A DNA stretch of 35,319 bases, from NCBI GenBank assembly GCA_022842285.1, contig JALHPV010000040.1, positions 1-35,319 on the forward strand. Direction: 5' to 3'. Source of the stretch: Kofleriaceae bacterium. GTDB taxonomy: Bacteria > Myxococcota_A > Polyangia > Haliangiales > Haliangiaceae. How positions within the stretch are numbered: position 1 is the stretch's first letter; every line of letters begins with the position of its first letter. Position numbers and translations under genes: made by a program. The notes beneath the pieces were generated by a model. It was not told the DNA's origin. It did not search any database and saw only the letters and a list, made by a program, of their open reading frames with translations. Of this stretch, positions 17,938-22,373 are shown piece by piece.

Positions 17938-20142
17938 ATGCGCCAGCGTTTTGCACGCCTCGGCTCGGTAGTGCTGGCGGGCCTCATTGGCCTCGCTGGC
18001 TGCTCCAAGAGCGAGTTCGACTACCGGACCTGGACCGAGAAGCTCGGCGACGGCAAGGAGGGCGAAGTCGCCGTCGACAAGCTCCAGCAGCTTGGCAATC
18101 CCGAGGCCATCCCGGCGCTCGGCAAGGCGTGGCAGGACGCGGGGAAGCCCGTCCGCATGCTCGAGGTGATCATCTCCCTCGCGCGCCCGCTCACCCCTGA
18201 AGAAGCGAAGGCGGCCTTCGTTACCGACTACGAGAAGAGCGGCCGCAAGGCCAGCTGGGATGCGGCGCTGCCCTTCCTCAAGCAGGCGATTCTCGAAGTC
18301 GACAAGGACAACCCGCGCTCGGTCGACTCCGCCACGAAGGCCGCGGAGGCCATTGGCGAGTCGCAGCTCGAAGGTGGCATGGAGGCGCTCGTCGAGATCG
18401 CCAACAAGCCCGTCGAGAAGAAGCTCTACGCGGCCCAGATCGCGGCCGTCCGCGCGATCGGCAAGTTCGAGGGGCAGAAGCAGGCGGCCTCGTCGGCGCT
18501 CGTGAAGATCGTCGACAAGGAAGGCCCGCCGCACCCGTCGACGGTGAAGGGCAAGGAGCAGCAGCGCTCTGCCGAGGAGAAGTACGGCTTCTACCTCGGC
18601 CTCACCGGCGCCGCGATCAACGCGCTCGGTGACCTTCGCGTTCCGTCCGCCACGCCCGCGCTCATCCTCGCGATGTACCGCGTGCCCGCGCTCTTCGGTC
18701 AGACCCGTCGCGCGCTCGTCGCCGCCGGCCCGACCGCCAAGGAGGAGATGCGCAAGATTCTCCGCCACGAGCACGCGGCGGTGAACCAGCTCTTCAAGGA
18801 CAAGAAGCTCGGCGAGGACTGCGACAAGACGGATCCGTCCGCGCCGTGCCTCCCGAACTCGGCGATGGACTACTACCCCGCCGTCGTCCTCGGTGACTTC
18901 TACGATCCGGCCACCGTGCCCGATCTGCTCAAGGTCCTCGAGCGGCCCGAGCTGCCGGTCTTCTATCACACCGACTCGACGCCGGATTACACGCAGTACT
19001 CCGCGATCTTCGACTCGCTCCGCAAGATCGGCTCCGCCGATGCGGCGAAGAAGGTCCGCGAGATGTGGGACAACAAGAACGCGACCCCGTCCGCGTACCT
19101 CACTCGCTCGATGGCCGCCTCGGCGTACGCCTTCCTCGTTCGTGATGGCTCCGGTGCCACCGAGCTCGCCGCGATCGCCGCCGACAACACGATCAAGGAC
19201 GCCGAAGGCGAGCGCCTTCGTCAGGAAGCGGCCACCGCCTTCGCGCGCATCGCGAAGACGGACAAGGAGATCAAGACGCTGAAGGATCAGGCCGCGAAGT
19301 ACATCGCGGCCGCCGACGTCGCTCGCAAGACGTCCGCCGAGAAGAAGCCGGCCGCCGATGCCGCCGACGCCAAGCTGAAGGCGCTGAAGCAGCAGTGGGA
19401 CGACAAGAAGGTCGCCTCCATCAAGATGTCGAAGGAGCTGTCGGCGAAGAAGCCGGCGTCGGACGCCGAGGCGACGGCGCAGACGAAGCAGCTCCAGGCG
19501 ATCGCCGCCGAGGTCGACAAGCTCGAGGCCGACTACAAGGCGCTGAAGAAGGCCAACAAGGCCATCACCGATCCGTACCGCCAGGCCGAGAACGAGGTGA
19601 AGGGCTACACGTCCTTCGCCCGCATGTTCCTCTCGCACATCGCGCGCATCGAGGTTGGCATCCGCTGCGGTGACAAGCTGCAGTGCTACGCCGACACCTT
19701 GAAGCTCACCGTCGAGCAGTCCGAGAAGAACCTCGCGCCGTACCTCGCTGGCTTCCCCGGCGACAAGCTCTCCGACTGGACCAAGGACCAGAAGCAGGCC
19801 GTCCTCGAGGCCAACATCGAGCGCGGCATGCTCGAGCTCGGCAAGCGCGGGCAGGAAGCCTCGCAGTTCACCGACCTCCTCCTCGACAACGCGAAGCGCA
19901 AGGAGCGCCTGATCCGTCAGTCGATCCTCCTGGCCCTCCCCAAGATCGCCAAGACCCCCTGCGCCACCTGCGAGGCAAAGCTCGACGAGGTCATCAAGTC
20001 GGGCACCGGTGACCCGGCGCTCAACGAGCTCAACACCGAGACCACGATGATGCGCAACTACTTCGGCTGGGCGGGTGGCAAGACCCCCACGCCGTCGACG
20101 AACGCGCCGGCCGAGAAGGCCGCCGAAGCCCCCGCGAAGTAA
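17938..20142 (+). CDS. HEAT-like repeat lipoprotein with coiled coil, TolQR operon partner
   Basis: The protein is 734 residues from ATG 17938. The signal peptide has lipobox LAGC (Cys22) and Ser follows the Cys, as in outer-membrane-directed lipoproteins. Residues about 40-400 consist of helical pairs such as VAVDKLQQLGNPEAIPALGKAW, AAVRAIGKFEGQKQAA and INALGDLRVPSATPALILAM, a HEAT/Armadillo-type solenoid. Residues about 440-545 are a Lys/Ala-rich coiled coil. A further helical region with Cys pairs (CGDKLQCY, CATCEAK) and an Ala/Pro/Lys tail follow. Its place as last gene of the TolQ-TolR-TolR operon suggests it is the envelope partner that receives the energy, in the position that TolA/TolB or Glt proteins hold elsewhere. 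This role is inferred; no homologue of known function is recognised. Confidence 0.85.
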   Translation: MRQRFARLGSVVLAGLIGLAGCSKSEFDYRTWTEKLGDGKEGEVAVDKLQQLGNPEAIPALGKAWQDAGKPVRMLEVIISLARPLTPEEAKAAFVTDYEKSGRKASWDAALPFLKQAILEVDKDNPRSVDSATKAAEAIGESQLEGGMEALVEIANKPVEKKLYAAQIAAVRAIGKFEGQKQAASSALVKIVDKEGPPHPSTVKGKEQQRSAEEKYGFYLGLTGAAINALGDLRVPSATPALILAMYRVPALFGQTRRALVAAGPTAKEEMRKILRHEHAAVNQLFKDKKLGEDCDKTDPSAPCLPNSAMDYYPAVVLGDFYDPATVPDLLKVLERPELPVFYHTDSTPDYTQYSAIFDSLRKIGSADAAKKVREMWDNKNATPSAYLTRSMAASAYAFLVRDGSGATELAAIAADNTIKDAEGERLRQEAATAFARIAKTDKEIKTLKDQAAKYIAAADVARKTSAEKKPAADAADAKLKALKQQWDDKKVASIKMSKELSAKKPASDAEATAQTKQLQAIAAEVDKLEADYKALKKANKAITDPYRQAENEVKGYTSFARMFLSHIARIEVGIRCGDKLQCYADTLKLTVEQSEKNLAPYLAGFPGDKLSDWTKDQKQAVLEANIERGMLELGKRGQEASQFTDLLLDNAKRKERLIRQSILLALPKIAKTPCATCEAKLDEVIKSGTGDPALNELNTETTMMRNYFGWAGGKTPTPSTNAPAEKAAEAPAK

Positions 20143-20162
20143 GCGAGCGCTTCACGCGCCCC

Positions 20163-20190
20163 ACACCCGCTGCTCGATCGCAGCGGGTGT
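20163..20190 (+). terminator. hairpin terminator after the TolQR operon
   Basis: acacccgctgc (20163-20173) and gcagcgggtgt (20180-20190) form a perfect 11-bp stem with a 6-base loop, 20 bases after the stop of the lipoprotein gene. It is followed by tgtcgtttc, a modest T-rich tract. This fits an intrinsic terminator. Confidence 0.75.
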
Positions 20191-20236
20191 TGTCGTTTCG
20201 GTTGCCGGACATCGGACCGGACAGCACCATCGTGGG

Positions 20237-20605
20237 GTGCCTGCGAAGGATCCCGACCAGCGGCGTGCGACCGTGCGAGCGTGGTACGCGCGTACGAAGT
20301 CTCGTGGTGGTCCGGAGATCGCCGAGCGAAGGCGGATCGTACGTCTGGCTCGTCGGCGTGCCATTGCTGATTGGTTCGTCGAGCTGAAGAGCGCTCTGGT
20401 TTGCCGGCGCTGCGGCGAGCCCCACCCGGGCTGCCTCCAGTTCCACCACACGGACCGCATGCAGAAAGAGGTCTCGGTCTCCGATGCAGTGCGGCGTGGC
20501 TGGAGTCGCCGTCGCATCGAGGCCGAGATCGCCAAGTGCGAGGTGCTGTGTGCCAATTGCCACCTGAAGCACCACGCGAAGGAGATGGCAGATGCCAATC
20601 GCTGA
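20237..20605 (+). CDS. small HNH-type zinc protein, copy 1
   Basis: About 122 residues from GTG 20237 (MPAKDPDQRR), chosen because its start and length match the second copy; the frame is open further upstream into the lipoprotein gene. A basic N-terminal helical region is followed by CRRCGEPHPGCLQFHHTDR, a spacer with SVSDAVRRGWSRRRIEAEI, and AKCEVLCANCHLKHH. Two Cys-x2-Cys knuckles, a central His-His and a final Cys-His-x3-His give the pattern of phage-type HNH endonucleases. A nicking or cutting role on DNA is likely from the family but not proven. The 3' end overlaps the start of copy 2 by 14 bases. Confidence 0.78.
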   Translation: MPAKDPDQRRATVRAWYARTKSRGGPEIAERRRIVRLARRRAIADWFVELKSALVCRRCGEPHPGCLQFHHTDRMQKEVSVSDAVRRGWSRRRIEAEIAKCEVLCANCHLKHHAKEMADANR

Positions 20606-20933
20606 TCGCGCTGCGTTCAACGCCGCGTGGCGTCGGTGGTACCGCGCGAACGCGCAACGCAAGATCGCGTGGCAACAGCGCCGTCGCGAGGAGCTCCGGT
20701 CCTGGGTCGCCGAACTCAAGGGGCCGTTGTCCTGCGAACGCTGCGGTGAGTCAGCCTCCGAGTGTCTACAATTCCATCATCGCGACCGAGCGAGCAAAGA
20801 GCTCGACATCGGTCGGGCCCTCGCCAACGGTTGGTCGAGAGAGCGGCTGCTACGTGAGATGGCGAAGTGCGACGTGCTGTGTGCCAACTGCCATCTCAAG
20901 CATCACTGGGAAGACCGATTTTCGTCGGGGTGA
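20592..20933 (+). CDS. small HNH-type zinc protein, copy 2, ending inside tRNA-Pro
   Basis: The protein is 113 residues from ATG 20592, with GGAG about 8 bases upstream inside copy 1. It has the same layout as copy 1: basic N-terminus, CERCGESASECLQFHHRDR, a spacer with IGRALANGWSRERLLREM, and AKCDVLCANCHLKHH. The two copies are paralogues, similar also at DNA level over the last motif, so this is a tandem duplication. The last three codons and the stop (20925-20933) lie on the opposite strand of the 3' end of the tRNA-Pro gene. That is the spot where mobile elements commonly integrate. An HNH endonuclease or nicking function is inferred. Confidence 0.8.
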   Translation: MPIADRAAFNAAWRRWYRANAQRKIAWQQRRREELRSWVAELKGPLSCERCGESASECLQFHHRDRASKELDIGRALANGWSRERLLREMAKCDVLCANCHLKHHWEDRFSSG

Positions 20934-20998
20934 CAGGATTCGAACCTGCGACTCCGTGCACCCAAAACACGTGCGCTACCAGACTGCGCTACACCCCG
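20925..20998 (-). tRNA. tRNA-Pro(UGG)
   Basis: The 74-base cloverleaf was read on the minus strand. The acceptor stem CGGGGTG/CACCCCG is perfect. The D stem is GCGC/GCGC with loop AGTCTGGTA. The anticodon stem is CGTGT/GCACG with loop TTTGGGT, anticodon TGG. The variable loop is GAGTC, and the T arm is GCAGG-TTCGAAT-CCTGT. The discriminator base is A, and CCA is not encoded. The 3' end overlaps the end of the HNH copy 2 gene on the other strand. Confidence 0.96.
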
Positions 20999-21036
20999 TG
21001 CAGACGAGATAGCACAAATCCTCCTCGCTGCGCTGC

Positions 21037-21666
21037 TCAGTACGGGAGACCGCCGCTGTTGCCACCCGGGCCGTAGTTGCAGACGATGCTCGAGCCGTAG
21101 GTCAGGCCAGGGCAGTTCGAGAGGGCGCAGCCGAGCTCGACCGAGGTCCGCCACACGATCTGCGTGTAGTGGCCGCAGACCCCCGAGCAGGAGCCGTTCG
21201 CCGGGTTGAAGTCGGCTTCTTCGGACGCCCACGACTCCACGGCATCGAGCCCGGTGGCACCGCCCGAGGAGCCGTAGATGTTCTCGCCGACGTAATACGG
21301 GTGGCCGGCGGAGCGGCCGTCGTTGTGGTCGATGAGGCCGGCCGGCGCTTCGTTGTCGGTACACGACTCCGCCCAGGCCCGGGCCGTGGCCTCGAGGTCC
21401 TCGTTCCACACGAGCGGAGGAAGCGGCGTGGCGGTATCGACCGCGGCGCGCACGTCGTTGTGGGCCCGGGTGATGCCGGCGAGCTCGGGCGGTTCGCCGG
21501 CGCTGTTGTCATCGCCGTCGGCCGCGTCGGCATCGGCCGAGTCAGCGTCGGCCGAGTCGGTGCCGGTCAGATCCGTGTCGTCGTCTTGGGCGTCGTTGGT
21601 GTCCGTGGTGGCGTCGTCGCTGCCGCAGGCGGCGACGACGAGGAGGATGAAGGTGATGGTCTTCAT
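21037..21666 (-). CDS. CAP (SCP/PR1) domain lipoprotein, copy 1
   Basis: The protein is 209 residues from ATG 21666. The signal peptide ends in lipobox VVAAC. A linker of about 40 residues rich in Asp, Thr and Ala follows, with DSADAD-type repeats. The CAP domain covers about 62-209: AHNDVR, LVWNEDLEATARAWAESC, GENIYGSS, the signature CGHYTQIVWRT and the closing CNYGPGGN. The CAP His and Glu residues of the active cleft are present (HNDVR, GEN, GHYTQ). CAP proteins bind sterols, lipids or surfaces, and the role in bacteria is poorly known. It sits 8 bases downstream of a close paralogue, so the two are a tandem duplication in one operon. Confidence 0.9.
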   Translation of the reverse strand: MKTITFILLVVAACGSDDATTDTNDAQDDDTDLTGTDSADADSADADAADGDDNSAGEPPELAGITRAHNDVRAAVDTATPLPPLVWNEDLEATARAWAESCTDNEAPAGLIDHNDGRSAGHPYYVGENIYGSSGGATGLDAVESWASEEADFNPANGSCSGVCGHYTQIVWRTSVELGCALSNCPGLTYGSSIVCNYGPGGNSGGLPY

Positions 21667-21674
21667 GCGAGGTC

Positions 21675-22373
21675 CTAGTAGGGGCGGTTGCCGTTGTTGC
21701 CGCCGGGGCCGTAGTTGCAGACGATGGATGAGCGGTACGTGAGGGCGGGGCAGGTGGAGATCGCGCAGCCGAGCTCGAGGGACGTGCGCCAGACGATCTG
21801 CGTGTAGTGGCCACAGACCCCCGAGCACGTGTTGCTGGCGTAGTTGTAGTTGGCCGCTTCGGCAGCCCAGAGGCTGACGGCGCCCATGGCGTTGGCGGTC
21901 CCCGACGAGCCGTAGACGTTCTCGCCCACGTAGTACGGGTGACCTTGCGAGCGGTTGGGGTTGTGGTCGATGAGGCCCGCGGGCGCGGCCGTGTCGGTGC
22001 ACCGGCTGGCCCACGCCCGCGCGGTGGCGGCGAGGGTCTCGCTCCAGACGAGCTGCGGCAGCGGCGTGGGCGTGTCGACGGCGAGGCGGACCTGGTTGTG
22101 GAAGAGCGTGATGCCGGTGAGCTCGGGCGGTTCGCCGACGCCGGGGGCGGCATCCGGGAGGGCCGCGTCGATCGTGTTGCCATCGGGGGCCGCATCGGGA
22201 GCCGGCAGCGCGTCGTCGCCGGGGCCATCATCGGCGGGGGTGTCGTCAGCGGGCGTGTCGTCGGACGCCGTGTCCGTGGTGTCGTCCGCGGCGTTGTCAT
22301 TCGGCCCGTCGGCGGGCGACGAATCGTCACCGCACGCCGCGACCATTGCGATCACGAGGAGCGCCCTCACCAT
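21675..22373 (-). CDS. CAP (SCP/PR1) domain lipoprotein, copy 2
   Basis: The protein is 232 residues from ATG 22373. The lipobox is VAAC. The linker is longer than in copy 1 and rich in Asp, Pro and Ala (about 17-80, with TPADD-type repeats). The CAP domain (about 82-232) has FHNQVR, LVWSETLAATARAWASRC, GHPYYVGENVYGSSG, CSGVCGHYTQIVWRTSLELGC and CNYGPGGN. The domain is highly similar to copy 1 while the linkers differ, so the linker evolves freely or expanded by repeats. It is likely exported and lipid-anchored, with the CAP domain presented beyond the membrane. Confidence 0.9.
   Translation of the reverse strand: MVRALLVIAMVAACGDDSSPADGPNDNAADDTTDTASDDTPADDTPADDGPGDDALPAPDAAPDGNTIDAALPDAAPGVGEPPELTGITLFHNQVRLAVDTPTPLPQLVWSETLAATARAWASRCTDTAAPAGLIDHNPNRSQGHPYYVGENVYGSSGTANAMGAVSLWAAEAANYNYASNTCSGVCGHYTQIVWRTSLELGCAISTCPALTYRSSIVCNYGPGGNNGNRPY

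Follow-up and report, generated by a model that had tools for sequence, protein, structure and literature searches.

The window analysed here, i.e. the whole 35,319-nucleotide stretch of a Kofleriaceae bacterium contig, contains two small HNH endonuclease-like genes, HNH1 and HNH2, arranged in tandem and ending at a tRNA-Pro(TGG) gene of the opposite strand (Table 1). A HEAT-repeat, lipoprotein-like gene faces the 3' end of this tRNA, with the HNH pair in between. Both HNH genes are complete ORFs located between genes and do not lie inside an intron or intein; an Rfam search of positions 19900-21300 found the tRNA alone (20925-20998, 62.9 bits) and no group I intron. The GTG codon given as the start of HNH1 is one among several possible starts of this frame. 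The AAGGAG motif before HNH2 is presumably ribosome-binding-like, and for the terminator-like hairpin two overlapping sites were found versus 0.7 expected. Farther on, after the tRNA, positions 21037-22373 hold two tandem CAP-domain protein genes that are 56% identical (Pfam CAP, E 3e-24, for the one scanned); no match to them was found in any of 35 other fetched regions.

Table 1 Features of the HNH/tRNA-Pro locus (positions in the window)
Feature	Coordinates	Strand	Basis
HNH1, 122 aa HNH endonuclease-like protein, GTG start	20237..20605	+	Reading frame, PHROG match, G009 counterpart
HNH2, 113 aa HNH endonuclease-like protein	20592..20933	+	ATG 20592, stop 20933, PHROG match, AlphaFold model
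14-base overlap of the HNH1 and HNH2 reading frames	20592..20605	+	Sequence
AAGGAG, presumed ribosome-binding-like motif, 7 nt before the HNH2 ATG	20579..20584	+	Read from sequence
HNH2 stop TGA, antisense of tRNA-Pro nt 66-68; identical position in G009	20931..20933	+	
tRNA-Pro(TGG), diverged allele, every stem pair kept	20924..20998	-	ARAGORN
Terminator-like hairpin between the upstream HEAT-repeat gene and HNH1	20163..20190	+	

The initial annotation had described two paralogous HNH proteins overlapping by 14 bases, the second of which takes its stop codon from the opposite strand of the tRNA, and this description was borne out in all three respects: the overlap is common to both frames, the HNH2 stop falls at the border of the T-stem and acceptor stem of tRNA-Pro, and an HNH2 query matches HNH1 (query residues 21-108, 51%). 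Since the same tandem pair and the same stop position within the tRNA recur in a second species of the genus (genome G009; G- and L-numbers denote genomes and loci, G000 being the window's own genome), albeit on a short contig, the arrangement is more than chance.

The best profile matches of both HNH1 and HNH2 are the HNH endonuclease families phrog_3106 and phrog_2255 (E 1e-21 to 1e-23), which are phage families with virus-built and longer profiles (252 and 211 positions). The Pfam HNH model scored under its cut-off for HNH1 and was unreported for HNH2. Seven residues are invariant across 22 aligned rows (C48, C51, H63, C97, N99, C100 and H101), and we take the His-Asn-His and zinc cysteine positions to be HNH nuclease residues. 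The AlphaFold model of HNH2 (mean pLDDT 91, pTM 0.71) displays a long N-terminal helix followed by a strand-helix-helix-strand-helix arrangement forming a small mixed domain. Foldseek gave no match to this model at E < 1; the best VIA-align row was a Geobacter HNH nicking enzyme (Z 4.3, rmsd 3.9, 63 aligned), followed mostly by HNH nucleases with Z of 2-3.5, and a PDB sequence search returned a single match, the 5-methylcytosine-specific restriction enzyme A 6ghc (E 0.007). The structural matches of the predicted HNH2 fold are thus too weak for naming a closest structure. No GIY-YIG family appeared in the Pfam, NCBIfam and PHROG results at E up to 1. The PADLOC defence models gave no family for either protein at E up to 0.1, and a known anti-phage defence system was rejected on this ground.

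In the tree, HNH1 is paired with its G009 counterpart (61% identity over 114 columns) and HNH2 likewise with its own; the two are not the nearest kin of each other, and the pair is therefore not a recent duplication. Among more distant relatives, haloarchaeal proteins have two HNH domains in a single chain, and both of those scanned carry HNH_repeat, the Pfam 'Homing endonuclease associated repeat' (E 2e-9 and 6e-12). The dN/dS ratio was ~0.30 in one haloarchaeal pair and ~0.18 in one acidobacterial pair.

The distribution of the pair among relatives is uneven. At E 0.01, the search of G000 revealed no further copies of the family besides the pair itself, and only the window's genome and its congener G009, a Myxococcota MAG, gave matches among the 30 genomes of the host family and, at E 1e-10, among the 317 genomes of the class; the presence in all relatives that the initial annotation had named as refuting its view was not seen. 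The G009 pair lies on a contig of 3,958 bases, at the same tRNA-Pro. There, the HEAT-repeat gene reads toward the tRNA 5' end and the pair is located on the opposite side, still at the tRNA 3' end. Hence, the neighbouring genes indicate that the HNH pair goes with tRNA-Pro and not with its flanks. Congeners also provide the empty sites that the initial annotation had proposed to look for: in G013 and G005, the tRNA-Pro lies ~15-20 bp from a kinase gene without the pair, and in G004, G008 and G010 the tRNA-Pro has the same orientation as in the window and the pair is absent. In G007, the flank search (E 0.002) recovered a remnant of HNH2, ~13 codons long, where the gene would be expected to lie. 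Across loci L064-L083, the orientation of tRNA-Pro(TGG) relative to the HEAT-repeat gene varies among congeners. A tRNA-Arg that stands beside tRNA-Pro in other genera is missing from the fetched stretch in most congeners and is flipped in G008.

These data raise the question of whether the neighbourhood of a tRNA gene is peculiar to this locus or belongs to the nuclease family. Genome contigs were searched, regardless of tRNAs, with a profile built from five HNH proteins, which yielded 55 loci from Acidobacteriota, Chloroflexota, haloarchaea and other archaea, Actinomycetota, Bacteroidota and others. A tRNA gene lies within 150 bp of the HNH ORF in 45 of these loci and within 500 bp in 47, leaving eight with no tRNA within 500 bp; tRNA density is 3.52 per kb at 0-150 bp versus 0.04 per kb at 1-4 kb, i.e. 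~88 times higher, in a count for which ORF bounds were entered by hand, some starts were set by choice and three intron-bearing archaeal tRNAs (L106, L108 and L153) were added by hand. The wider set of 99 distinct HNH ORFs combines the 55 loci with further fetched copies, the 119-genome search described below, three phages and the window. Here, 79 ORFs have a near tRNA (within 150 bp at the ORF 3' end or 250 bp before the domain), representing 20 isoacceptors; the 20 ORFs without one include first members of tandem pairs. In 15 cases the 3' end of the ORF overlaps a tRNA gene, and in 32 the sole near tRNA is downstream on the same strand, so that the ORF sits at the tRNA 5' end. Thus, in the other loci the family adjoins either end of the tRNA with about equal frequency, and some HNH ORFs are located within tRNA operons.

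A single genome can hold several copies: the Acidobacteriota genome G319 has six near six different tRNA places. In the best-sampled Acidobacteriota family, 39 of 119 genomes have a copy at E 1e-8, and none was matched in the remaining 80. A Ktedonobacteraceae genome shows the same layout as the window, with a tandem pair converging on tRNA-Thr. At L109 (3872-4375), a Ktedonobacter HNH ORF enters tRNA-Thr antisense by ~63 bases, so that the C-terminal residues of the protein would come from the tRNA gene. In the soil Chloroflexota loci L144, L147 and L154, relatives with two HNH domains lie a short distance downstream of a group I intron (Rfam RF00028) instead of a tRNA, and at L102/L204, also from Chloroflexota, the order is tRNA-Pro, HNH, tRNA-Gly, HNH, group I intron. 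Matches were also obtained in 238 phage records; at least seven name a tRNA under the match among the 40 listed. Some phage copies abut tRNAs and one sits between other genes. Five phage regions were inspected, of which one has no visible tRNA and another is unannotated, and the phage loci L306, L307 and L310 are not an unselected sample. The search of 72,556 plasmid records gave one weak match, which disfavours a plasmid vector.

Host taxa of the family are patchily spread across phyla and phages. In a tree of 95 HNH domains, the label of the linked tRNA changes 29 times, versus 56.4 after shuffling, and none of 200 shuffles was as low, although the tree is poorly resolved (121 columns) and the tRNA label is partly confounded with the host clade. 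Duplicates and domains shorter than 70 residues were excluded; by hand, three first members of tandem pairs received the tRNA label of their partner, copies between tRNA-Gly and tRNA-Thr were labelled Thr-GGT, and 14 of the 95 rows are unlabelled. The six tRNA-Thr(GGT) copies form one set (100/98), as do the tRNA-Met and the tRNA-Asn copies, and a supported cross-phylum set (95/81) unites the Thr-GGT copies of Acidobacteriota with the Thr-CGT/TGT copies of Ktedonobacteraceae. Five Acidobacteriota Thr-CGT copies form a separate set, one Thr-TGT copy also falls elsewhere, and the labels Arg-TCT (4 changes in 4 rows) and Pro-TGG (5 changes in 7 rows) are scattered. On this tree, the nuclease clades group in part by tRNA species.

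The tRNA genes themselves were then compared. In the genus, eight HNH-less congeners have 0-3 changes from the consensus in tRNA-Pro(TGG); the carriers G000 and G009 have 10 and 16, respectively, and G007, with its remnant, has 12. G011 and G002, which also lack the HNH genes, are diverged as well (16 and 18 changes), and no HNH gene or remnant was found in the flanks searched (L072 and L082, respectively). With both of them included, the exact test gave p 0.035 for 13 of the 16 genomes; the other three (G003, G006 and G014) gave no tRNA-Pro(TGG) in the fetched sequence. The lipoprotein tree groups G009 with G002 and G011 (85/85), which suits the idea that these two are past carriers that have lost the nuclease, as we infer. 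The control for this divergence was provided by isoacceptors of the same genomes: the main CGG and GGG isoacceptors of G000, G009, G007, G011 and G002 have 0-3 changes, the extra tRNA-Pro-like copies L180, L181 and L182, which differ by 11-30, having been left out. Changed isoacceptors occur in two HNH-less genomes (CGG with 6 changes in G008 and GGG with 7 in G010). None of the 21 stem pairs is lost in any of the seven tRNA-Pro(TGG) alleles checked, and several pairs are changed on both sides; pairing was counted for tRNA-Pro alone. Pairwise comparison of the G000, G007 and G009 alleles gives 12-15 differing positions. The lipoprotein tree places G007 as sister to the HNH-less G005 (100/100), which has 3 changes; 15 positions distinguish the alleles of these sisters. 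Alleles from another genus of the host family share 92% identity with that of G000.

A similar picture was obtained in Acidobacteriota. In the tyrT-glyT-thrT cluster, the gap between tRNA-Gly and tRNA-Thr measures 10-94 bp in 67 HNH-less genomes versus 377-456 bp in the five genomes with an HNH gene there; thus, presence/absence polymorphism at one site, as seen in the genus, exists here too. In a sixth carrier, the HNH gene is located after tRNA-Thr. tRNA-Thr(GGT) is more diverged in the six carriers than in the 67 others (p 0.0003), and the control genes tRNA-Tyr and tRNA-Gly gave p 0.89 and p 0.82. This test covered 73 of the 119 genomes, the first 47 HNH-less ones being among the better matches to an HNH-bearing query and 20 more, mostly less similar, having been added before the test. 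The six carriers differ from their nearest HNH-less neighbour at 2, 4, 0, 11, 9 and 8 positions, with the carrier G320 having an undiverged tRNA-Thr; the intergenic flank differs as well. For tRNA-His, four carriers versus 30 others gave p 0.001 (Tyr p 0.77, Gly p 0.30) in the 34 genomes with both controls, and p 5e-5 when both controls were not required (50 of 94 genomes with a match). The unusual tRNA-His of G325 is nearly common to G343 (2 differences), which has no HNH gene there. In haloarchaea, 26 of 50 genomes (from 98 with a match) have the HNH gene at tRNA-Gln(CTG), and the effect is weak (p 0.012), 21 of the 26 carriers differing by 0 or 1 from an HNH-less neighbour. Such ordinary tRNA-Gln genes in most carriers mean that recoding of the tRNA is not universal. 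Because the comparison set consisted of HNH-less genomes alone, distances within a carrier clade can be inflated; the tRNA-Tyr and tRNA-Gly controls answer this for Thr and His, but not for Gln. In sum, the tRNA beside the nuclease is clearly diverged in the case of tRNA-Pro (genus) and of tRNA-Thr and tRNA-His (Acidobacteriota), and such divergence is mostly lacking for haloarchaeal tRNA-Gln.

Another important issue is the kind of mobility behind this distribution. The initial annotation had suggested that the pair may be a minimal mobile unit or remnant and that the tRNA 3' end may have served as integration site. The former stands in kind, given the patchy distribution, the empty sites and the remnant, but insertion of the integrase type does not. 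Integrase-mediated insertion of an element, or of what is now its remnant, at the tRNA 3' end appears highly improbable, even though the site is used by integrases, as an integrase ORF (PF00589, E 2e-13) at the 3' end of the same tRNA-Pro in the congener G001 (L074, 4730-5524) indicates. The three phage-integrase family (PF00589) matches in G000 all lie outside the window's contig, the last 12-15 bases of tRNA-Pro have no second occurrence in the window, and the one partial tRNA-end match elsewhere in the genome (G000:C234, 28 nt, 93% identity) has no integrase-like sign in the surrounding 3.5 kb, where ORFs were read by eye. The attachment repeat that the initial annotation had envisaged was thus not found in the window, and an element borne by a PF00589-type integrase was rejected; the frequent position of the family at tRNA 5' ends and within tRNA operons argues against it as well. 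Taken together, the evidence points to homing-type rather than integrase-type mobility.

Homing endonucleases spread by cutting alleles that lack them. A nuclease that adjoins tRNA genes, is patchily distributed and partly clade-specific, and is accompanied by a changed but still paired tRNA fits homing with the tRNA gene as the target and the changed tRNA as the protected allele. We therefore consider it likely, judging from sequence comparisons, that HNH1 and HNH2 are a free-standing, homing-type HNH endonuclease pair specialised on a tRNA gene. The nuclease would recognise and cut the ordinary tRNA-Pro(TGG) gene of an HNH-less chromosome, and repair templated by the HNH-bearing copy would import both the nuclease genes and the tRNA next to them. 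A changed sequence, and also the insertion-altered flank, would spare the resident tRNA; the linked diverged tRNA would then probably be resistant to cutting. As to the presence of two genes, we guess from the two-domain chains of haloarchaea and the Ktedonobacteraceae tandem that two half-sites may require two domains. A further-reaching proposal, which we put forward tentatively and do not favour over its negation, is a natural 'cleave-and-rescue' gene drive on essential tRNA genes across bacteria and archaea, with many nuclease clades each tied to one tRNA species: the nuclease would destroy the ordinary tRNA gene, the cassette would supply a recoded, cut-resistant functional copy, and the cells keeping the cassette would survive.

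The protective role of the tRNA is the point at which another explanation has to be weighed, namely that the tRNA diverged only by co-import with the nuclease from a distant donor, without selection for cutting resistance. It is compatible with homing, denies only the protection, and is a real possibility, if not one that we would lean towards. Co-transfer would produce the same linkage, and the sharp difference between the sisters G007 and G005, the differing intergenic flank and the closeness of the G000 allele to that of another genus all accord with it. Against it, the mutual distances between the G000, G007 and G009 alleles mean that one donor is insufficient, and several stem pairs have been changed on both sides.

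Two other explanations dispense with homing on the tRNA. Neutral hitchhiking, in which gaps beside tRNAs are safe landing places and the nuclease targets something else, would agree with the copies by group I introns (L144, L147 and L154) or phage genes, which show that the family is not bound to tRNA; it is made quite unlikely by the partial tracking of tRNA species by nuclease clades, including the supported cross-phylum set, and by the divergence of the linked tRNAs as opposed to the neighbouring Tyr and Gly tRNAs. A resident cellular function of a tRNA-linked nuclease in defence or tRNA quality control, kept for the benefit of the host, is unlikely too. The dN/dS values below 1 in both pairs tried and the frequency of the gene in haloarchaea speak for such a function, but 315 of the 317 genomes of the class and 80 of the 119 from the best-sampled family gave no match, PADLOC gave none either, and the copies within one genome stand at different tRNAs.

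The reading of the pair as homing-type nucleases can be compared with two known systems. SegB of phages T4 and T6 is a GIY-YIG free-standing homing endonuclease that is linked to tRNA genes and cuts within them (PMC13096335, citing Brok-Volchanskaya 2008). As in the SegB case, the nuclease gene described here is free-standing beside tRNA genes of many isotypes; in contrast, it belongs to the HNH and not the GIY-YIG type, and SegB is a phage system, whereas the gene described here adjoins a single chromosomal tRNA gene. According to the excerpted account, SegB cuts within tRNA genes and spreads the tRNA region, activities that the present family would share only by conjecture, and a recoded linked tRNA is not among the SegB features described in that excerpt of PMC13096335. 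In Mycobacterium, its phages and plasmids, HNH endonuclease genes occur in tRNA arrays and have been proposed to move or diversify tRNA genes (PMC6582537, PMC5966550, PMC6409571). The likeness consists in HNH genes among tRNA genes, but these arrays are large and thought to be phage-derived, and the excerpted accounts mention neither insertions at single tRNAs with empty sites nor clades specific to a tRNA or diverged alleles. Among the listed matches in the open-licence PMC literature, no title concerned single-tRNA HNH insertions in chromosomes with diverged linked tRNAs. Thus, free-standing tRNA-linked homing nucleases and HNH genes in tRNA arrays are already known, and single-tRNA chromosomal HNH insertions with diverged linked tRNAs appear to be new.

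Because tRNA genes are conserved, and probably essential in many cases, nearly every cell offers a target to a nuclease directed against them. Should the recoded tRNAs beside the nucleases indeed be resistant to cutting, this would explain the sudden sequence change of single tRNA genes in otherwise uniform groups, and the family would be a natural counterpart of engineered drives that combine a nuclease with a recoded gene.
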